A stretch of 64,000 nt of DNA from Planctomycetota bacterium. GTDB taxonomy: Bacteria; Planctomycetota; Phycisphaerae; Phycisphaerales; SM1A02. A model generated the notes under the pieces. It was not told the DNA's origin and ran no database searches. It saw only the letters and a program-made list of their open reading frames with translations. Made by a program: the position numbers and the translations under genes. The stretch covers positions 72,582 through 136,581 of the forward strand of contig QWPV01000001.1 of the NCBI GenBank assembly GCA_003671055.1, in the 5' to 3' direction. Shown one piece after another: positions 19,625-29,915 of the stretch (its first letter is position 1; the number at the start of each line of letters is the position of its first letter).

Positions 19625-20377
19625 GACGTTCCATCGACCCTCACGCCACCACGCGATCTTTGGATCCACACGGAAGAGCGCGCCGAGATCCGAAACGTCG
19701 ATTTCCACAAGCGGCGCGCCGCTCGTGATCGCGATATCAATCGACAGCGGTCGTGGTTGCGGCATGAGGAGTGCAGCTTCAAGCAACAACATTCGGCGAA
19801 GCGCAGCGTTGTCGAGGACAGGACGAGTTCCTCCGCGAAGCGTCCGACACTCTCGTTCGAATCCCTCGCGTCCGCCAGGAATCATCGCGTCGTATTCATC
19901 GAGCAATGACTCCGCACTCGCAGCGCGAATCGTCGCGAGCGCGACTTGCCCACGCCCGATGCGGTAGTACGAGAGCGCACGCGAAAGCGCGAGTGCCTTG
20001 GATGGTTCGATGCCGCCAGCGCCACTCACATACTGCGTACCACCAAGGAGGGCAGCTGCGGCTTGCATGCGACGCTTCTCAAGCGGCGTCGACGCGAGCG
20101 ATGCGCGACCAAGTGCGGCGCTGCGCGCGAGTCGATCGCGATCAAGGGCGCCAGCGAGACCGAACAATTCACGCGCAAGTTGACGCTCTGCTTCGTTGGT
20201 TGCTGCGTCGGCAACTTCCTCGCCGAGCAGAAAGTAATCGAGTGGCCGCGTTGGATCGAGAGCCTCGAGCCTCGCATCCCAGCGCGTGGGCGCTGACGCC
20301 GAGACGCCGAGCGCACTCGGAAACATGCAGAAAAGCACTGCAAGACAAGCGATTCCTGTGTGTCGCGCCGTCATCAT
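19616..20377 (-). CDS. Small secreted protein, last gene of the ExbB/ExbD/VWA operon
   Basis: A 253-residue protein with a signal peptide (GIACLAVLFCMFPSALG, to about residue 30). The rest is mostly helical (RLEALDPTRPLDYFLLGEEVADAATNEAE and similar), suggesting a short TPR-like or alpha-solenoid module, and ends in a beta-rich tail. I do not recognise the family. Its ATG overlaps the stop of the 1006-residue membrane protein by 4 nt (ATGA), so it belongs to the same translationally coupled series. It overlaps the convergent secreted-protein gene by 9 nt and closes the operon. Confidence 0.65.
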   Translation of the reverse strand: MMTARHTGIACLAVLFCMFPSALGVSASAPTRWDARLEALDPTRPLDYFLLGEEVADAATNEAERQLARELFGLAGALDRDRLARSAALGRASLASTPLEKRRMQAAAALLGGTQYVSGAGGIEPSKALALSRALSYYRIGRGQVALATIRAASAESLLDEYDAMIPGGREGFERECRTLRGGTRPVLDNAALRRMLLLEAALLMPQPRPLSIDIAITSGAPLVEIDVSDLGALFRVDPKIAWWREGRWNVSL

Positions 20378-23300
20378 GGTTCATCCTCACGATGTGTGAC
20401 TTCCGCTTCGATGTTCACTGTCACCACTCGAGCAAATCCGATCATCGTCGCTGCGAGTTGGGCGGACGCACTCTGCGCGTTGCTGCGTGCGAGTGCTGTA
20501 TTGGCAAGAATCTCGCGAAGTGCGGGAGTTGCACTCGGACGCCGCGCCGCTTCGATCGCTGCAGCTTGTTCAACGAGCGACGCTGCGTCCGCAACTGCGC
20601 GTTGCAGCGACCCTTCTGCAAGTCCGCGTCGTGCAATGCGAAGTCTCTCAAGCTCAGCCGGAGCAGCGGGAAATGGTTCCGTCAGAAACCGGTCATCCGC
20701 AGCGACTCGCACCGCGCCGCCGAGCGCTGCGATCGAACCATCAAGCGTGACTGGGATATCCATGAGCAGAATGCTCGGCGCATACAGGACTGTGATCGCG
20801 TTCGCGCTGCCCATCACGCGCATCGACATGCGATCCACCGCCGCATCCGCGCTTGACTCAAGCGAAAGTATTCGCTCCACCAACGCCGCGCGCGCAACCG
20901 GAATCCAATCGCGACCAGTGAACTCTCGATTCAAGAGTGCTGCGAGAAACGCCGCCGCCTCTTCGCGCGGCTTCTGCTCAGCGAGTGCATCAAGCACCGC
21001 GAGCAAGACGGTCTTCCCACTCGCGAACTTGTCCGCAATCGCGCCCTGCGCAGCGCGTCTTGTGTCACTTGCGTTGCCAGCGAACGCCTCACGCGCAAGG
21101 ACTTCCGCATCGCGTGGACCGAGGTCGCCTGTGGCGGGCATCGCACGCAACGACGCGATGCGCTTCTGTCGTTCATCCGCATTCAACCCAGGCCGTGTGA
21201 ACTCGTCAGACCATGCACCGTCGGATGAACCTGAAGGCCGCAAACCACTCTCGCCGGCAAACGGTGCTTCAAGCGCACGGCGATCAAGTTTGAGCGCTTC
21301 GCCACTCGCACTCAACGCACGCCCTGCATCTGCAGCCTTTCCCGCGTCGAACAGTCGAACAGCGTGCACGACTTCAAGCGCGCTCTCTGCAATCGCAAGC
21401 GACTCCACATCGTCATGCGTTGTTTCAAGCTGCGCGGAAAGCGTCGCGATCGACGTTCGAATCAGATCGAGCGTGCTGCTCGCGAGGGCGAGGTTTTCCC
21501 CCTGCTCACCCGATTCTGCTTTCGGCCACGCGTCGAGAATCCGTCGCAAAGCAGCATCGCGGCGCAGCGCATTCGCATCAACAGGCAGCACCATCTCTGG
21601 CGAGAACCACGCGATGCGATGATTCCGATCAAGCATGCTCGTGAGTACCCACAGCCGAGTGGCTGCAATCGCGGGATTCGCAAACCACGAGCCGAACGCG
21701 GTGCGCGCCTGATCGCCAGACACGCCGCGGTTCGACCAGTCGATATCCGTGATCAATCGACCAAGGGCATCGCTCGCGTCATTCTGCAAGTCAATCGGCG
21801 CAACGTTGAGGAGGATCGCCTCAATCGCAATGAGACGCGCGCCTTCACGCAATTTCGCATTCTCACTCGCGGCGTCCACTGCTTCAAGCCAGCGTGACCA
21901 ATCATCGAGCGTCACTGTGGCAAGTCCTGTGGTCGTCGCATCCGCAAGCGCGTGCGCACTGTTCGAGAGACTCGCAATCGCGGCGTAGTTGAATCGCTGC
22001 GTCGTGACGGACGCTGGAATCGACACTCCATCTCGACGCAACGCTTCACGCGCTGCACTCGCGACATCTGCTTCGATCTTCGCATCTCGCACGATCTCCG
22101 CGAGAAGGCCTGCAGCCAAGGCGTTTCGCCACACACGATGCCATGGTGCGACAGGCTCGAGCAGCGCGTCTGACTCAGGAAGTCCATGCACCGCCAGTAC
22201 CAGCGCGCGTGCAGACGCTTCGCCCTTCACATACTGCGCGACTTGCAGCGTTGCCTGGATGAACTCCGTTCGAAAAGCACCTGAGACCGCCCACGAGATT
22301 CCTGCCTCACGCATCACCGTCGCAAGATCAGCGGCATGTTTACCACTCAAGCGACCGCCGTTGGTTGAGATCGCGCGACTTAGTAGATCGAGTTCGGTCA
22401 GGTACTCCGGCCATTTCGCGGAGAGTTGAAGCGCAACTGCAGGCGTCGCGCTCGACGCAAATCCAGGCGCGCGCGAGTACTTCGCCGCGTTCGCGAGTGC
22501 TTCGATGTTCGTATCTGGCGGCGCGAACTTTTGCGCGAGCGCTGCAGCGGCTCGCTCACGCTTCGTCGAATCGTCGTCGATTGCTGCGATCGTCGGCAGA
22601 GGCATGCTGCCGCCCGTTGCACTGTTCCCATCAACACCAGACCCACGCACAATCATCCACACGAGCGCAAGTGTGCAGAGCACCGAACCAATGCCGAAGA
22701 AAATCGCGAGTCGTAAGATCGACCACGGTGACCGACCTTGCATGTCATCTGTGATCGAGCCGCCGATGCGATCCATCACCGCTTCGACCGCGCCTGGCTT
22801 CTGCGGTCGACTAGCGTGTGCGCGCTCGGCGGAGACACCGATCGCAGCCATATCTTTTTGCAGCGCCGCCGCACCGCCATCGCGCATGAACTTTGCGAGA
22901 CCAGCAACTACGCGCTGCAGCCCCTCGTTACTCACGCCATGTTCAGCAGCGATCGCAGCGAGTTGCGCGGCCGTCTTCGGATTCCAACCGCCACCGCTCA
23001 CGAGGATCGTGAGGACCACGCGATCAAACTCCGTGAGGTTCTCTTCTGTCACTCCCGCGCGCGGCCGCGTCGGCGTGAATCCCGCAGCATTTTGGCCTGT
23101 TCCCGCGCCGCGTTCGATGCGTAACTTCGCCAACGGATGCACGGGCGCGAGGCTCGGTTCTCGCATCAACGAAAGCTCAAGTTCAACCTCGCGTGCGTAG
23201 GCTTCGAGTTGATGAATCGCGCGCGCTGCATCAGGCGAGTCCGCATACGGATGCGCGCGCACCTTCGCGATGAGCCGTGCAAGCGCGGCTTCGACCGCAG

Positions 23301-23394
23301 CATCCGTTGTTGTTCCTGCTCCAACGCCAAGCACACCGCGCGCGCTTCGATCACTGCCGATCTCGATGAATCGATCAAGTGGTGTGAGCTTCAT
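20374..23394 (-). CDS. Large single-pass membrane protein of the ExbB/ExbD/VWA operon
   Basis: A 1006-residue protein. Residues 1-225 are cytoplasmic-looking and include a helical, winged-helix-like part (FDRVVLTILVSGGGWNPKTAAQLAAIAAEHG). One transmembrane helix lies at about 226-249 (SILRLAIFFGIGSVLCTLAL). About 750 residues of helical, solenoid-like sequence follow, presumably periplasmic. No enzyme motif is visible. The ATG overlaps the preceding TPR-like gene by 4 nt and its own stop overlaps the next gene by 4 nt. A topology spanning the inner membrane suits a scaffold that connects cytoplasmic and periplasmic parts of the ExbB/ExbD complex; this is inference from position and topology only. 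Confidence 0.7.
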   Translation of the reverse strand: MKLTPLDRFIEIGSDRSARGVLGVGAGTTTDAAVEAALARLIAKVRAHPYADSPDAARAIHQLEAYAREVELELSLMREPSLAPVHPLAKLRIERGAGTGQNAAGFTPTRPRAGVTEENLTEFDRVVLTILVSGGGWNPKTAAQLAAIAAEHGVSNEGLQRVVAGLAKFMRDGGAAALQKDMAAIGVSAERAHASRPQKPGAVEAVMDRIGGSITDDMQGRSPWSILRLAIFFGIGSVLCTLALVWMIVRGSGVDGNSATGGSMPLPTIAAIDDDSTKRERAAAALAQKFAPPDTNIEALANAAKYSRAPGFASSATPAVALQLSAKWPEYLTELDLLSRAISTNGGRLSGKHAADLATVMREAGISWAVSGAFRTEFIQATLQVAQYVKGEASARALVLAVHGLPESDALLEPVAPWHRVWRNALAAGLLAEIVRDAKIEADVASAAREALRRDGVSIPASVTTQRFNYAAIASLSNSAHALADATTTGLATVTLDDWSRWLEAVDAASENAKLREGARLIAIEAILLNVAPIDLQNDASDALGRLITDIDWSNRGVSGDQARTAFGSWFANPAIAATRLWVLTSMLDRNHRIAWFSPEMVLPVDANALRRDAALRRILDAWPKAESGEQGENLALASSTLDLIRTSIATLSAQLETTHDDVESLAIAESALEVVHAVRLFDAGKAADAGRALSASGEALKLDRRALEAPFAGESGLRPSGSSDGAWSDEFTRPGLNADERQKRIASLRAMPATGDLGPRDAEVLAREAFAGNASDTRRAAQGAIADKFASGKTVLLAVLDALAEQKPREEAAAFLAALLNREFTGRDWIPVARAALVERILSLESSADAAVDRMSMRVMGSANAITVLYAPSILLMDIPVTLDGSIAALGGAVRVAADDRFLTEPFPAAPAELERLRIARRGLAEGSLQRAVADAASLVEQAAAIEAARRPSATPALREILANTALARSNAQSASAQLAATMIGFARVVTVNIEAEVTHREDEP

Positions 23395-26060
23395 GGCGTT
23401 GCTCCTCGCGTCGTTCCTTGCTTCGAACGCACTTCTATCTCAAGCGCCTCGAACCGCTCTTTCCAAAGACCTGGCCCGAGATCCGCGTGCAACTTTCGAT
23501 GCTGCTCAAGCACCGCAGCGCTGCGATCTGCATCAATGAGCAACAAGACTCGCGCGAGGTCGTACTTCGCGGCAAACCAAGGCTCTGTTCGAGTTGCCAA
23601 CCCACTCACGAGCGACTTGAGATGGCCAACCGCGACTTCATGCGCGCCAGACTTCTCCGCGAACAACGCCGCTGATTGCAGAATGCCCGCCTCGCGATTC
23701 CCTGCATCAATCAACACCTGCGCAATCTGCAGTCCACGCTTGGCATCCTCGCTCGACGCACTCGACAACACCATCTCCTTGCGAGCATCAAGCAACACGC
23801 GCACGAACGCCACATTCGCGGGCGATTGCGCCGCCTTCTCAAGTCCGCCCTCTCGGAGCAAGAGCGCTTCTGCTGCGCGTACTGAAGTCGCGACAAACGC
23901 GCTTCTTCGCGGATCGTCCTTCGCTGTTGCGCGCCGCGCGATCTCTGCGCCACGCAGTGCGAGCCGAAGCCCTGCATCCGCCCACAGATCGGTCGCGCTC
24001 GGCAATTCAAATTGCGCGAGTCCGCTCTCGACTAACTCCCACTGGTTCTGCATGATCGCCAACTGCAATCGTCGGTACGCCAACTCTTCGCGCGCCTCTG
24101 CGAGTTCGAATTCGCCGCGCGCGACAGACGCATCGATGGCTGTCAACAGTGACGCAGCGAGCGCGGTGTCCAAGACTTCGTTCGCGAGCGCGACTTCAAG
24201 CGCCTGTCGCGCAATGCCCACACTATTTCCGGGCAACCCTTCAGCAGTTGGATCAATCGGCAGCGAGACAAGCACGCCGATGTATCGACGCCCAAGCGCA
24301 GTCCGCTCAGTCGCAACTTTCGCAGCGCGGAAATTTCGATAGAGCGCGCCGAGCGCCGCACGACGCGACGAGTCGAAGGATGGATCGGTGCTCGGCACCG
24401 ACAACAATTTCTCGACATCCGCAGTGGATGGCGTGGAGTCCGTCTGCACTCTGCGCACCATCAAGTCGACCACGCGTAACGAAGCCGGGAAACGCCGAAG
24501 AAATCCATCGCTCAGCAGCGCGATCTCCGCTTCAAGCGCGGTGCGCTCCGCACCACGCATCGTTCGCGCATACTCATCAAGACATGCGATCGAAGCCCAC
24601 GCTGCGTCTTCTCCGCGCTCTCCAGTGAGGTTTACTGCGACTTCTTCAAATGCCTTCGCTGCCTCGCGATATGCACGCGCGCCACGAAGACTCCACGCTC
24701 GCATGAGTTTGCAACCATCTCGTGCTTCGGGATAGCCGTCGACATCCGCAGCAGCAAGCGCTTCTTCGAGCGCATTGAGCGCTTCGCGATTTGCGCGGAC
24801 AACATTTTCGAGCGCACTCGTATCGACGCTCGATCCTTGCTCTTCCGCGAGGAGTCGCGCAGACTCATACGCGGTGTCCGTAGCGCGCGCCGTGTCGTAC
24901 TGGGAGAGCGACGCAACGTAGCGCGCGACGAAGCCATCGCCTTCGAGTCCGCGACCACCGAACTGCTCGACGATGTCGCGCACTTGCGCGAGTTCTCGCT
25001 TCGTCGCAAGTTGCGCAAGGGCTTCACGCGCAAGTGCGAGTGCGGCACCATCATTGGTGGTATCGCGAAGTCCGCCCGCAGCTGCGACGCGATACCACGC
25101 CGTTGCAGTGCTGTCTTGAGACGCAAGTGCTTTGAGCACCGTACGCGCACTTGCCCAATCTTTCGCACGCACTGCAGCAGCGAGTCGCCATCCATCGAGC
25201 CGAGCCCTCGTCGCTTCAAAGGTTGTGGGCTCTTCGAGAAGTTTCAACCAACGCGATGCTTCACCGTAACCTTGCGTCTCCGCTTTCGCGAGTCCAAGTC
25301 CGAGCAACGCCGATGCGAATGCTTCTTCGCCACGCAAATCCATCGAGACTTCCGCGGGTTCGAGTCGACCGTTGCGTGCGCCCGCGATCTCCGCAAAGAT
25401 TGCAACGGAAGCTTCAGCCTCTGCGCGCGACTCACTCAAGAGGCACTTGTACAAGTGCGCCCAGCCGAGCAGAAACCTCGCGTCAGAAGCGATCTGCTCG
25501 ACGCGTTGAATATCCTGACGCGCGAGATCTTGCGTGAGGCCAACCATCGAATCGATCCGACGGTCGAGGTCACTCGCTCGTTGCATCGACTCCTTCTGCA
25601 ATCGTTCAAGCGTGGGAATCGCCAACGCGAGTTCGGCAAGCGCAAAGCTCGCCGACTCCGTGGGCAATCGCACTGCGGCACGAAGATCCTCCGCGATTTC
25701 CGCGGCGCCACGGTAATGCGCACGAGCGATCGCGAGATCAAGTCGATGCGTTGCGTCGCCAAGACTCTCTTCGAGTGCGCCATTCGCGCGTGCGACAAGC
25801 GCCGCGCGATCCTTCCCTCGCACCGAGAGATCGAGCAATCGCACATAGGTCGATGCCAATCGTTCGCGGACTCGCTTGAGTTCGTCGCCGGTGGATTGCT
25901 TCGTGAGCAATTCCAGTCGCGTGGCAAGAAGTTCATCAAGCGCGTGTGCTTCGAGCCAGTCCGCGAGTTCGTCACCACGCGCCGAGCCCACGCACATCAC
26001 GCAGACCATGCTCGCCACTGCGAGGAATCGACGCGAGGAATGGAACAACTTCTGTTTCAT
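23391..26060 (-). CDS. Secreted alpha-helical repeat (TPR-like) protein
   Basis: An 889-residue protein with a signal peptide (FLAVASMVCVMCVGSARG, to about residue 29). The rest is a long series of amphipathic helix pairs rich in Ala, Leu, Arg and Glu, with TPR-like spacing (for example AEDLRAAVRLPTESASFAL and SALLGLGLAKAETQGYGEA). It is probably a periplasmic protein-binding solenoid. Its ATG overlaps the stop of the second exbD by one base (TGATG), and its stop overlaps the next start by 4 nt. In Tol/Ton-like systems TPR proteins often bridge to the outer membrane, but here that is only a suggestion. Confidence 0.7.
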   Translation of the reverse strand: MKQKLFHSSRRFLAVASMVCVMCVGSARGDELADWLEAHALDELLATRLELLTKQSTGDELKRVRERLASTYVRLLDLSVRGKDRAALVARANGALEESLGDATHRLDLAIARAHYRGAAEIAEDLRAAVRLPTESASFALAELALAIPTLERLQKESMQRASDLDRRIDSMVGLTQDLARQDIQRVEQIASDARFLLGWAHLYKCLLSESRAEAEASVAIFAEIAGARNGRLEPAEVSMDLRGEEAFASALLGLGLAKAETQGYGEASRWLKLLEEPTTFEATRARLDGWRLAAAVRAKDWASARTVLKALASQDSTATAWYRVAAAGGLRDTTNDGAALALAREALAQLATKRELAQVRDIVEQFGGRGLEGDGFVARYVASLSQYDTARATDTAYESARLLAEEQGSSVDTSALENVVRANREALNALEEALAAADVDGYPEARDGCKLMRAWSLRGARAYREAAKAFEEVAVNLTGERGEDAAWASIACLDEYARTMRGAERTALEAEIALLSDGFLRRFPASLRVVDLMVRRVQTDSTPSTADVEKLLSVPSTDPSFDSSRRAALGALYRNFRAAKVATERTALGRRYIGVLVSLPIDPTAEGLPGNSVGIARQALEVALANEVLDTALAASLLTAIDASVARGEFELAEAREELAYRRLQLAIMQNQWELVESGLAQFELPSATDLWADAGLRLALRGAEIARRATAKDDPRRSAFVATSVRAAEALLLREGGLEKAAQSPANVAFVRVLLDARKEMVLSSASSEDAKRGLQIAQVLIDAGNREAGILQSAALFAEKSGAHEVAVGHLKSLVSGLATRTEPWFAAKYDLARVLLLIDADRSAAVLEQHRKLHADLGPGLWKERFEALEIEVRSKQGTTRGATP

Positions 26061-26473
26061 CAGCGGAACGGCACGTAGGTCACATTTGTGTAACCCGCAT
26101 CATGCGCGGCTTGCACCGCGCCAGCAGCGAATCCGAAATCGACACCATCTCGCACGCGGACGAACACACTGTCTTCCGGATTCAGCGCACGGAGAGCGAC
26201 CGTGAGTGACTCTTTGTCGCCGTAGGTTCCGCCGCCGACACGATAGAGCCGCGTGCCATTTTCCTGCACCACGTCAATGTTCTGCAATTCAAGGTCCGTG
26301 CGCTTCTCGCTGCCCTGCTGTGTTGCGAGTTGAGGATCAAGTTGCGCCTCTTGCACCACCGCAGATTGCGTGAACAAGAAGTACCCGAGCAGCAGAAATG
26401 TCGCATCAATCATCGCCGCGAGATTAATCTCGGGTTTACGGTCGCGCTCGGATCCTCGTCGCTGGAATCTCAT
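26060..26473 (-). CDS. ExbD/TolR-family protein, second copy
   Basis: A 137-residue ExbD-like protein: a short cytoplasmic N-terminus, one transmembrane helix with the conserved proton-path Asp (EINLAAMIDATFLLLGYFLF), and a periplasmic domain ending FGFAAGAVQAAHDAGYTNV. The Asp that carries protons in ExbD and TolR is kept. The helix has extra aromatic and glycine residues compared with its upstream partner, and the linker is Gln-rich. The ATG overlaps the stop of the first exbD by 4 nt. Two non-identical ExbD subunits alongside one ExbB recall the Myxococcus Agl and Gld-like motors, although the precise role here is unknown. Confidence 0.88.
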   Translation of the reverse strand: MRFQRRGSERDRKPEINLAAMIDATFLLLGYFLFTQSAVVQEAQLDPQLATQQGSEKRTDLELQNIDVVQENGTRLYRVGGGTYGDKESLTVALRALNPEDSVFVRVRDGVDFGFAAGAVQAAHDAGYTNVTYVPFR

Positions 26474-26898
26474 TTCGCAGATCCCTCCGTCGCGACCCGA
26501 ACCGCCTGCACGCCTGCTCGCGAGAGACGCTCGAGCACCTCGTTGATGACCTCAGTGCGCGCAGCACGATCCGCGCGAATGAGCGGTCGTAACTTCGCAA
26601 CTCCGCCTTCAGTGATTGCCCCTGCCTCCGTCACGAGTTCGCCAATGCGGTCGAGCGACACAGGTTGTTCATTCACGAGAATGCTCCCGTCTGCGAGCAC
26701 ATTCAACACAACCCCAGCTTGCGCCTTTGCATAATCCTTCTGCCCAGGTTCCTTGGGAAGCGCTACGTCGGTACGCGCTAGTTGCGCCGCTTGACCAGTC
26801 ACAAGAAAGAAAATGAGCAATTGAAAAACGATATCGATCAGCGGTGTCATGTCCACCACTGCGCCGCGGAAGGAGTTATTGCGAGGAGCAAATCGCAT
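26470..26898 (-). CDS. exbD: ExbD/TolR-family protein, first copy
   Basis: A 142-residue ExbD-family protein. The N-terminal helix DMTPLIDIVFQLLIFFLVTG carries the essential Asp in LID. A periplasmic domain of about 100 residues follows, with the LVNEQPVSLDRIGELV strand-helix-strand typical of ExbD. ATG 26896-26898 is preferred, with GGAA 7-10 nt upstream; an in-frame TTG at 26910 would add four residues. exbB ends 31 bp upstream. The stop overlaps the second exbD by 4 nt. It should form, with ExbB, the proton-driven stator of the operon. Confidence 0.9.
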   Translation of the reverse strand: MRFAPRNNSFRGAVVDMTPLIDIVFQLLIFFLVTGQAAQLARTDVALPKEPGQKDYAKAQAGVVLNVLADGSILVNEQPVSLDRIGELVTEAGAITEGGVAKLRPLIRADRAARTEVINEVLERLSRAGVQAVRVATEGSAK

Positions 26899-26929
26899 CG
26901 TGCGTTCCAATCACTACTGCTTCGAATCG

Positions 26930-27640
26930 TTAGACGCGCGCCACCTTCGTCTTGCCTGTGCTCTCAATGATCGCGACGACTTCTTCCATCTCGGAGGCCG
27001 CATCTCCAGCAAGCCGATCGACGCGGTTGCGGAAGAAGCTGTAGAGCGAGACGCACGGAATCGCGACCACGAGACCTTGGAAAGTTGTGATGAGTGCAAT
27101 CGCGATGTTGGCGGCGAGTGCCTCGTAGTAGGTCGAATCGTGTGCTGCGCTTGACGCGACAGTTTCGAATGCGCCGATCATTCCCTGCACCGTGCCGAGC
27201 AGTCCCAACAGCGGGCCGACCGAACCAATCACGCCGATCACATCCATCGTGCGATACAGGCGCGCCGTTTGTTCGATGCCGCTCTCTTCAAGCGCGCTCT
27301 TCATCTCGAATGCGCCAAAGGGCGATGCGATGAATCGCTTTAATCCAGGCGCGAGGGTTCGCAGGAAGTAGCAGTCGTTCGCGGGCAAGAGCGAGTACTC
27401 GAGCGCCTGCTCAAGTTGACCGCGCCGAAGCAGTTCCTTCACCGCGTTGATGCGATCACGCGGCATCTGCACGGATGCGCGGATCTGCACAAAGTGCACG
27501 ACCACAAACGCAAACGCGACGATCGAGAGGAGCACGATGATGTAGCCGATCGCTCCACCGCCCGTGATGAACTTGAGTGCGGAGGTTCCGCCGCTTGGGG
27601 CTGCGGTATTCGCTGCTGCTTGCAATAGAAAATGCGTCAT
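26930..27640 (-). CDS. exbB: ExbB/TolQ/MotA-family proton channel protein
   Basis: A 236-residue inner-membrane protein with three hydrophobic helices: about 30-52 (GYIIVLLSIVAFAFVVVHFV), about 135-160 and 170-195. The family signatures VGPLLGLLGTVQGMIGAF and ALITTFQGLVVAIP keep the conserved helix-2 and helix-3 threonines of ExbB and TolQ. With ExbD it forms a pentameric proton channel that drives periplasmic work. The ATG overlaps the stop of the upstream secreted-protein gene by 4 nt. There is no tonB, tolA or pal in the window; the VWA protein two genes upstream is the likely output component. Confidence 0.92.
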   Translation of the reverse strand: MTHFLLQAAANTAAPSGGTSALKFITGGGAIGYIIVLLSIVAFAFVVVHFVQIRASVQMPRDRINAVKELLRRGQLEQALEYSLLPANDCYFLRTLAPGLKRFIASPFGAFEMKSALEESGIEQTARLYRTMDVIGVIGSVGPLLGLLGTVQGMIGAFETVASSAAHDSTYYEALAANIAIALITTFQGLVVAIPCVSLYSFFRNRVDRLAGDAASEMEEVVAIIESTGKTKVARV

Positions 27641-28791
27641 GGTTGTTGCTTCCTGTCAATCTCTGGTGCGGCCGCCGGCACCGCTGCGCGCTTCAAAAGT
27701 GGGTCGCCGTCAAGTGTGGCGATGATGCGTTCAATCGATTTCGCGCTTTTCGCGTCGCCGTACGCGCGACACGCTCCCGCAGCTTCAAGCAAAGCGAGTC
27801 GCCCGAGCGCGGAACTTCCTTCGGTTGCGGCAACGCTCAAGAGTTCAAGCGTTCCTTCTTCCTGTGCAGCACGATCGGGTTGTGATACGAGCGCGCGACC
27901 GATTGCCATGGATCGCCACGCGAGAAGATATGGAGGCGCATCCCCGCCGCCCACTTGCTTCGCGATGGCGAGAAATCCTTCGGACAACTTGCGTCGATCA
28001 CGCGCATCACTCGCAAGAAGAATCTCTTCGAGCGTGATGAGAAGTTTCTCGCTCGTGGATGGGCTTGCACTCGGTGCAGCATGCTGCGGCGCGCGGCGCA
28101 GGATTCTCGCGAAGCGCGGCGCCCAAATGACGCTCGTGCCACCGTCTTTCACCGCGCTCTCAAGAGCTGCAGCAACCCGCGTGGCAAGCTCGGGCGATGT
28201 GAACGGACTGATCTCGCTCGAGAACATCGTGCTCGCATCAAGCACAGGCGGAAGCGTGTTGAATGGCGTTGCATTCGCGCCGCCGCCAGCACTGCGCGCT
28301 TCGACAAGCGTCATCCATGGCTCGATTGCGGCAACATTGTCTCCGCGCGCGAGTGCGCACCGAAGCAGTCCCTCGGCAATGAGTTGACCAAGGTCTCCCT
28401 TCCGAGTGCGAAGCGCGCTCCACGTCTCACGGAACAACGGTTCCGCGAGTTCAACATCATCACGCAACAGTCGAGTGCGTGCGCGCCACACACTCTCGCC
28501 GAATTTCAACTGCGCATCGATGTTTCCTGGCGCGGTCGTTCCGCTCACCGTTCGCACTTCATCCCAACGCGCGAACTGATCGACTCCATCCGCGCCCTTG
28601 ATGCGCAATCCAGACTCTTCAACAATCGCCGCTGCGCCATCAAGCGCGGGCAACCCGCCTCGACGTTCGACATGCACCTCAGCAAGCGCGACTTGTGCAA
28701 TGCTGCCGAGTGTCGCAGCGACGCTGAGCACGAGTGTTCGTAGTGAAGATGAACGGGGAATTCGCATGAGCAGAGAGCGTGACGAAGACAT
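27637..28791 (-). CDS. Secreted protein between the VWA and exbB genes
   Basis: About 384 residues, with a signal peptide (TLVLSVAATLGSIAQVALA). A small beta-rich N-terminal part follows (VHVERRGGLPALDGAAAIVEE), then helical repeats through to the C-terminus, ending in an Ala/Pro tail. The family is not recognised. The start at 28791 lies three bases after the VWA stop. An alternative ATG at 28765-28767 (MRIPRSS) gives a more typical signal peptide and cannot be ruled out. Its stop overlaps exbB by 4 nt. It is presumably a periplasmic partner of the ExbB/ExbD complex, by context only. Confidence 0.7.
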   Translation of the reverse strand: MSSSRSLLMRIPRSSSLRTLVLSVAATLGSIAQVALAEVHVERRGGLPALDGAAAIVEESGLRIKGADGVDQFARWDEVRTVSGTTAPGNIDAQLKFGESVWRARTRLLRDDVELAEPLFRETWSALRTRKGDLGQLIAEGLLRCALARGDNVAAIEPWMTLVEARSAGGGANATPFNTLPPVLDASTMFSSEISPFTSPELATRVAAALESAVKDGGTSVIWAPRFARILRRAPQHAAPSASPSTSEKLLITLEEILLASDARDRRKLSEGFLAIAKQVGGGDAPPYLLAWRSMAIGRALVSQPDRAAQEEGTLELLSVAATEGSSALGRLALLEAAGACRAYGDAKSAKSIERIIATLDGDPLLKRAAVPAAAPEIDRKQQP

Positions 28792-28794
28792 CAA

Positions 28795-29820
28795 TCAGGG
28801 CGACGCTGGAATGGTGATACGAACTCCGCCAGTGACGGGCACGAATCGAAAGACGCCTTCGTTTTCACGCGCGATCTGTTCGAGCGCCAACCGACCAACA
28901 TCCGAGCCAAAGCAAATCGTGTTGATGATCGACGCGCGCCGCTGCTTATGATTGAGGCGAGTGATTTCATCCGGCGCGCCAGGTGGAATCTCACCATCCG
29001 TCAGGAAAAACACGACATCCGCGGATGCCGAAAGCTCAGCAAGTCGCTCGAACGAGGTCATCGGATACGTGCCACCGCCCGCGGCTTGCTCTTCAATCCA
29101 ACGCTTGAGTCGAAGCACATTGCCTCGCGTCGCGCGCGTCCATGTCTCTTGCCAATCAGGCACCCGCTTGTCATCGGAGAAAAGAATGACGTAGAAACTT
29201 GCGAAGTCCGGGAGCGCCGCGACGGAACGCTTCAACTCGTTCAGCGCAACGACGAAGCGATCGTCGGCCTGCATCGAACCTGAAACATCGACGATAAATG
29301 CGAATCGCGCGCCGCGACCGCCAACGCCAAAGAAACTTGTTCCACCGCCGCCGCGACCACTTCCAATGCCGATGCCTTGACCAGGTCCGCCAGTACCAAC
29401 GATGCCGCCGGGACCTGGCGCCTCAAGCATCCCAAAACTATTCTGTGTCGGGTCACTGCTCGCGAGATCCGCACTCAGCGCAGGAATCTCATCCGGGTCC
29501 GGCATAATTTCGCCCGCTGCGAGCGGCGAAGGATCCGGAAGTTCAACGTCCTCCGTCGGCTGCACGGGCTCTTGCGCTTCGGCGAGATTGAATTCAACGG
29601 GCTCGGAATATCGCGCTTCAACCGCAGGTTCGCGATACCACCACAGCGAGAGCATCATCATGATGTGCACAACAATCGATACCGCGAATGCGAAGAGAAG
29701 CAGGTGCACCCAGTACTCACGCGCATATCGCTTCCGCTCTCCTTGAAGGGTCACGACGCGAACAGCCTTGCCTCTCCTCAGGGGCGTCGGTGGCGGAGTT
29801 GGGCTTGCGGGAAGTTGCAT
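28795..29820 (-). CDS. TonB-like transmembrane protein with a VWA domain
   Basis: A 341-residue protein from ATG 29818-29820. It has a basic cytoplasmic N-terminus (1-36) and one transmembrane helix (about 37-62). An acidic Pro-rich spacer (64-120) and a Gly-rich stretch (136-170) follow, then a VWA domain (170-341). The helix contains S48-x3-H52 (SIVVH) with Leu59, matching the Ser/His/Leu spacing of TonB's transmembrane motif. The VWA MIDAS is intact: DVSGS at 178-182, Thr251 and Asp275 in LTDGEI. It heads the ExbB/ExbD operon. I infer a force transducer energised by ExbB/ExbD whose periplasmic end is a metal-dependent adhesion domain. An earlier in-frame start at 29883 is less likely. Confidence 0.85.
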   Translation of the reverse strand: MQLPASPTPPPTPLRRGKAVRVVTLQGERKRYAREYWVHLLLFAFAVSIVVHIMMMLSLWWYREPAVEARYSEPVEFNLAEAQEPVQPTEDVELPDPSPLAAGEIMPDPDEIPALSADLASSDPTQNSFGMLEAPGPGGIVGTGGPGQGIGIGSGRGGGGTSFFGVGGRGARFAFIVDVSGSMQADDRFVVALNELKRSVAALPDFASFYVILFSDDKRVPDWQETWTRATRGNVLRLKRWIEEQAAGGGTYPMTSFERLAELSASADVVFFLTDGEIPPGAPDEITRLNHKQRRASIINTICFGSDVGRLALEQIARENEGVFRFVPVTGGVRITIPASP

Positions 29821-29915
29821 GAAATCCCTGCGCGGCTGGGCGGGTCGTGAGCGGTTAGGGGCCCCGAGTCGGCGAGCCCACATGTTCTTACGAGATCCCT
29901 CTCAAAGTGCACGCC

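Follow-up and report, generated by a model that had tools for sequence, protein, structure and literature searches.

The closest described relatives of the system analyzed here are the 'vWA force transducers' of the PVC group, which were predicted in June 2025 with the Planctomycetes named among their carriers (Williams-Jones et al., 2025, Mol Biol Evol msaf138, PMC12204202). These proteins combine a transmembrane helix bearing the SHLS motif with a disordered linker and a vWA fold, and are encoded next to a tolQ-like gene, two tolR-like genes and a TPR gene; AF3 models put the conserved His on the edge of the motor, and no phenotype or function was reported (PMC12204202). Our literature search for a published phenotype of vWA force transducers also found none. 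The same work describes the TPH-vWA class, in which a vWA protein with a pore Asp in its helix is paired with a TolQ-like motor and no ExbD, and points out that TonB itself is often unlinked to motor genes (PMC12204202). In full, the motif reads S-x3-H-x6-L-x3-S, and in TonB and TolA a motor box or D-box is spaced 10–15 residues past the helix (PMC12905483). Cryo-EM shows TonB Ser16 and His20 in contact with Ser34 and Trp38 in TM1 of ExbB, with Trp38 touching Pro190 (PMC12215075).

In the window (the whole stretch of 64,000 nucleotides that was analyzed), a seven-gene operon, all on the minus strand, encodes a VWA protein, the protein H385, ExbB, two ExbD proteins, a protein of 889 aa and a protein of 1006 aa, in this order. 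Adjacent genes touch or share a few bases, the one exception being a gap of ~20 bases between ExbB and the first ExbD, and the operon is divergent from pyrH-frr; scans for sigma-70 promoters and terminators gave hits at chance level. The VWA protein, a candidate force transducer of 341 aa (28795–29820, minus strand), was analyzed by translation, Pfam, alignment, AlphaFold2 and Foldseek. An alternative upstream start is present at 29883, and the shorter start agrees with a near homologue (L005). Counting codons from the start at 29820 places helix residues 37–62 at positions 29635–29712 (minus strand), and the codons of S48, H52 and L59 at 29679–29677, 29667–29665 and 29646–29644. Translation of the minus strand from 29820 to 28795 places these three residues exactly where the preliminary description, which was silent on the strand, had put them.

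The AlphaFold2 monomer (30-sequence alignment, mean pLDDT 78) contains a single long helix at residues 14–61, a linker of about 96 residues (~62–157) that is disordered, with low pLDDT and without secondary structure, and is Pro/acid-rich and then Gly-rich, and a well predicted VWA fold at ~159–330. Only VWA models of Pfam are matched (VWA_3 just above the cut-off), and a Pfam search for a TonB_C or TolA C-terminal domain gave no match. The Foldseek matches of the model are VWA/I domains, including BatB (3ibs), and a sequence search of solved structures returned chance matches only. About 13 residues past the helix, the pattern V-E-F-x-L is conserved (VEFNL in codons 75–79, 29584–29598, minus strand; family consensus V-E-F-A-L/V), a candidate motor box or D-box; the AlphaFold2 monomer has no strand at this site.

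Since all 61 homologues have the five MIDAS residues (D178-x-S180-x-S182, T251 and D275) unchanged, a metal-dependent ligand contact of the VWA head is likely to be under selection. Of the MIDAS adhesion head proposed in the preliminary description, the metal site thus stands with all its residues intact, whereas adhesion finds no support. A partner protein in the periplasm or outer membrane is no less likely, and the secreted proteins encoded in the operon itself are nearer candidates for the ligand.

The spacing previously noted in the helix, Ser48-x3-His52 with Leu59 at +11, is indeed that of Ser16/His20/Leu27 in Escherichia coli TonB. Drift of the Ser and His among related VWA proteins, which had been named as refuting the idea, is not seen: across 61 aligned homologues, whose median identity to the window protein is 31% overall and 26% within the helix, position 48 is Ser in 60 and Ala in one, position 52 is His in 59 and Asn in two, and 58 proteins retain both residues. 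When the helices of the 61 homologues were shuffled (2000 rounds), Ser and His occurred together at the two columns in a mean of 0.19 proteins and in 3 at the most. Every other column within residues 28–110 is conserved at 77% or less. The same motif emerges when only the segment of highest hydrophobicity in each protein is considered, and in the 30-row modelling alignment S48 and H52 are invariant, together with residues of the VWA part and of the approach to it. A further 25 homologous loci, most of them belonging to other classes of the phylum, comprise 19 with SxxxH, one with TxxxH and five with neither. Within the order and beyond it, no residue of the N-terminal helix and spacer is better conserved than this Ser and this His. 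The fourth residue of the motif, Ser at +15, is absent (Arg63 in the window protein, at a position that is not conserved in the family), and position 59 is Leu in 35/61 homologues and Ala in 17. Since the Leu of TonB reportedly does not touch ExbB (PMC12905483), the informative pair is Ser and His.

The three motor genes, all on the minus strand, encode an ExbB/TolQ-like proton channel (26930–27640; Pfam, alignment) and two ExbD/TolR-like proteins, the first (26470–26910; Pfam, pattern) with the helix Asp D26 in PLIDIVF and the second (26060–26473; Pfam, Asp read in the translation) with D23 in MIDATF. A simple pattern finds this Asp in 54/54 sequences of the first ExbD and 51/54 of the second, and the exception in locus L079 shows an Asp by eye. 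Compared with E. coli ExbB and TolQ reference sequences that were verified at the named residues only, the window ExbB has the equivalents of S34, T148, T181 and P190, with F replacing W38. Across the operon ExbBs, Ser34 is kept in 55/55, Thr148, Thr181 and Pro190 each in 54 with one gap, and the Trp38 equivalent is Leu, Val or another residue. Trp38 is missing also from the Ton ExbB of the same genome; Pro190 is retained in the VWA-linked motors and not in the local Ton ExbB. Ser34 was rejected as a specific signature of docking because the Ton ExbB has it too, as do other ExbB-like channels in these genomes; being near-universal among ExbB homologues, it permits docking and does not prove it. 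The absence of Trp38, the partial conservation of Leu59 and the missing fourth Ser count against TonB-like docking.

The operon is conserved across the order, and all seven genes recur in identical order in two genomes from another part of the phylum (L200, L201). Among 64 loci encoding a homologue of the VWA protein, pyrH is nearby in 61, and ExbB and both ExbDs are encoded beside the VWA gene in 54. The other ten comprise four loci cut by contig ends (L042, L045, L049, L050), two with a different VWA protein (L073, L076) and four from which the motor genes are truly absent (L062, L064, L085, L089). One membrane-anchored VWA homologue (in genome G021) has neither motor neighbours nor the Ser/His pair. 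Several loci of one planctomycete family (L204–L207, L210, L213, L214) encode VWA proteins with SxxxH and have no motor gene detected within ~10 kb.

The remaining operon genes, also on the minus strand, encode putative envelope proteins. H385 (27637–28794), second in the operon and delineated by synteny and its model (pLDDT 87), consists of an anchor or signal helix, a small beta domain and TPR-like helices; its listed start is TTG, with an ATG one codon further on, and it has no Pfam match and no PDB fold match at E ≤ 0.001. The 889 aa secreted protein (23391–26060), recognized by synteny in the order, appears by eye to consist of TPR-like helical repeats, a label that we infer because no Pfam model, TPR included, matches it. 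The last gene, likewise traced by synteny, encodes the 1006 aa protein (20374–23394), which has one internal TM helix and no convincing Pfam match; ~225 residues precede this sole clear TM helix, the first 70 of them faintly J-domain-like by eye.

The same genome encodes a second system of this kind on another contig (C6, L113:5503-10764), which consists of VWA, ExbB, ExbD, ExbD and a long secreted protein; the gene of the latter contains a run of N. This VWA protein is divergent (31% identity over part of its length) and carries SIAMH in its helix. Relatives of it are found in 95/101 genomes of the order, some of these matches possibly being other VWA proteins, and SxxxH is present in 22/22 of the helices that were read. 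A canonical Ton set (ExbB, ExbD, TonB with TonB_C, and a TonB-dependent receptor) is encoded on a third contig, C32. The helix of this canonical TonB (L114:9483-10205) has AVLVH, i.e., Ala-x3-His, with the His and without the Ser. Of 41 genomes covered in the family, all encode MotA_ExbB, 13 have TonB_C above the cut-off and 12 the TonB-receptor plug, and a search for TolB (TolB_N) detected it in none. These counts indicate that most ExbB/ExbD sets in the family lack a known Ton or Tol transducer; VWA genes adjoin these sets. In families f5 and f6, VWA genes also occur in tandem pairs (L141, L147, L150), some of which have an ExbB-like gene nearby; a relationship to the paired vWA class already published is conceivable.

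Since relatives across the phylum retain the docking residues almost without exception, a motor-driven transducer appears very probable. Specifically, we propose, with a probability of about 0.77 and on the strength of sequence comparison, that the VWA protein is the ExbB-docked force transducer for the operon's own proton-driven ExbB-ExbD-ExbD motor, and that the partner is gripped by the VWA head. The helix would dock on the edge of ExbB via Ser48 and His52 in the manner of TonB and TolA, as the conservation of these residues suggests, and a short VEFNL strand following it would probably dock on the ExbD pair. The disordered linker of ~96 residues could span part of the periplasm, allowing the VWA head to grip its partner via the MIDAS metal site, and proton flow would then be converted into a pull on that partner, which might be one of the secreted proteins of the operon, an outer-membrane protein or a cell-wall protein. 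The VWA proteins with SxxxH that have no motor gene within ~10 kb count against motor coupling, though TonB, too, is often encoded apart from its motor (PMC12204202).

Several natural variants bear on this scheme. In genus g7 (G028, G057, G123), the motif His of the operon VWA protein is replaced by Asn, and the second VWA protein of G028 and G057 retains the His. Swayne and Postle reportedly found in 2011 that Asn substitutes for His20 of TonB without loss. The operon of genus g3 has no motor genes; loss of the motor was considered and rejected, because an operon-clade ExbB with two ExbDs is encoded elsewhere in those genomes (L120:2681-4424, L156). In the tree, this relocated ExbB clusters at 0.99 support with one of another family, which suggests that the motor was replaced by transfer. 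Two further genomes, G022 (L089) and G104 (L085), retain the genes for VWA, H385 and the 889 and 1006 aa proteins and lack the exbB-exbD-exbD block; their VWA helices carry SVLVH and SLVIH, and the best remaining ExbBs of both genomes fall in another clade. The relocated and missing motors are compatible with transducers that use a motor encoded elsewhere, assembly gaps being possible as well.

Alternatively, the VWA protein could be an anchored periplasmic scaffold in which Ser and His serve as a static attachment to ExbB, for assembly or gating, with force transmitted by another protein of the operon, e.g., that of 1006 aa. The operon does encode further conserved envelope proteins, and conservation alone does not separate docking from force transmission; however, the succession of motor helix, ~96-residue disordered linker and globular head is the layout of TonB and TolA, and linker and head recur in two diverged VWA families, so we consider this scaffold unlikely. 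Still less probable, in our estimate, is that Ser and His reflect a general feature of helix-helix packing or proton relay, for example in VWA dimerization, unrelated to the TonB port. Small and polar residues can mediate packing of helices, and Trp38 of ExbB is not conserved, but packing would hardly account for the exact TonB/TolA spacing in two VWA families that are fixed beside ExbB/ExbD, for the His shared with the genome's own TonB (AVLVH) or for the absence of the pair from the motor-less homologue in G021; moreover, Asn in one genus fits a non-protonated contact, as reported for TonB H20N. A TPH-vWA arrangement, with the VWA helix inside the ExbB pore as a MotB/ExbD-like partner, has a precedent in the existence of that class (PMC12204202) and is nevertheless contradicted by the sequence, given a helix without Asp and two Asp-bearing ExbDs encoded next door, so that we give it practically no weight.

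Beyond the role of the VWA protein as a motor-driven transducer, it is tempting to speculate that the near-universal VWA-ExbB-ExbD-ExbD systems of Phycisphaerales are the main trans-envelope force transducers of this order and act in the role of Tol-Pal, in outer-membrane attachment or constriction, holding the partner with a metal-dependent VWA head in place of strand addition and, in some species, driven in trans by a motor other than the original one. We regard this extension as tentative and, on balance, rather doubtful. If the transducer role of the VWA protein is correct, the TonB/TolA energy port would be a modular socket into which various effector heads can plug, the idea could be probed precisely through two residues, and much of Planctomycetota, a large branch of it, would gain a candidate for its main envelope-spanning machine. 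The natural variants provide ready tests, namely Asn in place of His in one genus, a relocated motor in another and a missing motor in two genomes.

Among the known systems, BatA and BatB share with the window protein a bacterial membrane-anchored VWA fold, but their topology differs and we know of no link of theirs to ExbB/ExbD or to SxxxH. The AglRQS gliding motor of Myxococcus with its vWA adhesin CglB, for which PMC12204202 cites Islam et al. (2023), also combines a TolQR-type motor with a vWA protein. CglB, however, is a separate outer-membrane lipoprotein and is not known to be anchored by a helix with SxxxH. With TPH-vWA, the window system has in common a membrane-anchored vWA head and a TolQ-type motor; it differs in that the helix lacks the Asp and that two ExbD genes adjoin. 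The S-x3-H-x6-L pattern of the motor-binding helix, the linker and the ExbB/TolQ plus ExbD/TolR motor are shared with E. coli TonB and TolA, whereas the VWA head in place of their C-terminal domain, the missing fourth Ser and the two different ExbDs are not.

The agreement extends furthest with the vWA force transducers of Williams-Jones et al., which likewise have an N-terminal Ser/His helix, a disordered linker of ~100 residues and a C-terminal vWA domain, together with an adjacent tolQ-like gene and a pair of tolR-like ones; their TPR neighbour may correspond to the 889 aa protein, which is TPR-like by eye. The likeness to the Tichowtungia vWA family rests on the published description of its layout and gene content. 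In the published loci, vWA is downstream of the TPR, tolQ-like and tolR-like genes, whereas here the VWA gene leads the operon and the TPR-like gene lies downstream of the motor, and two more conserved genes (H385 and that of the 1006 aa protein) are part of the operon. The hybrid transducer on the TonB energy port envisaged in the preliminary description is right in outline, in line with the near-invariance of Ser and His and with a gene fixed beside ExbB/ExbD/ExbD, but the idea is not new, having already been published as a prediction (PMC12204202). What is new here is the VWA-first gene order, the two extra genes, the quantified near-invariance of Ser and His and the genus with His replaced by Asn, as well as the relocated or missing motors and the distribution of these systems against Ton and Tol.
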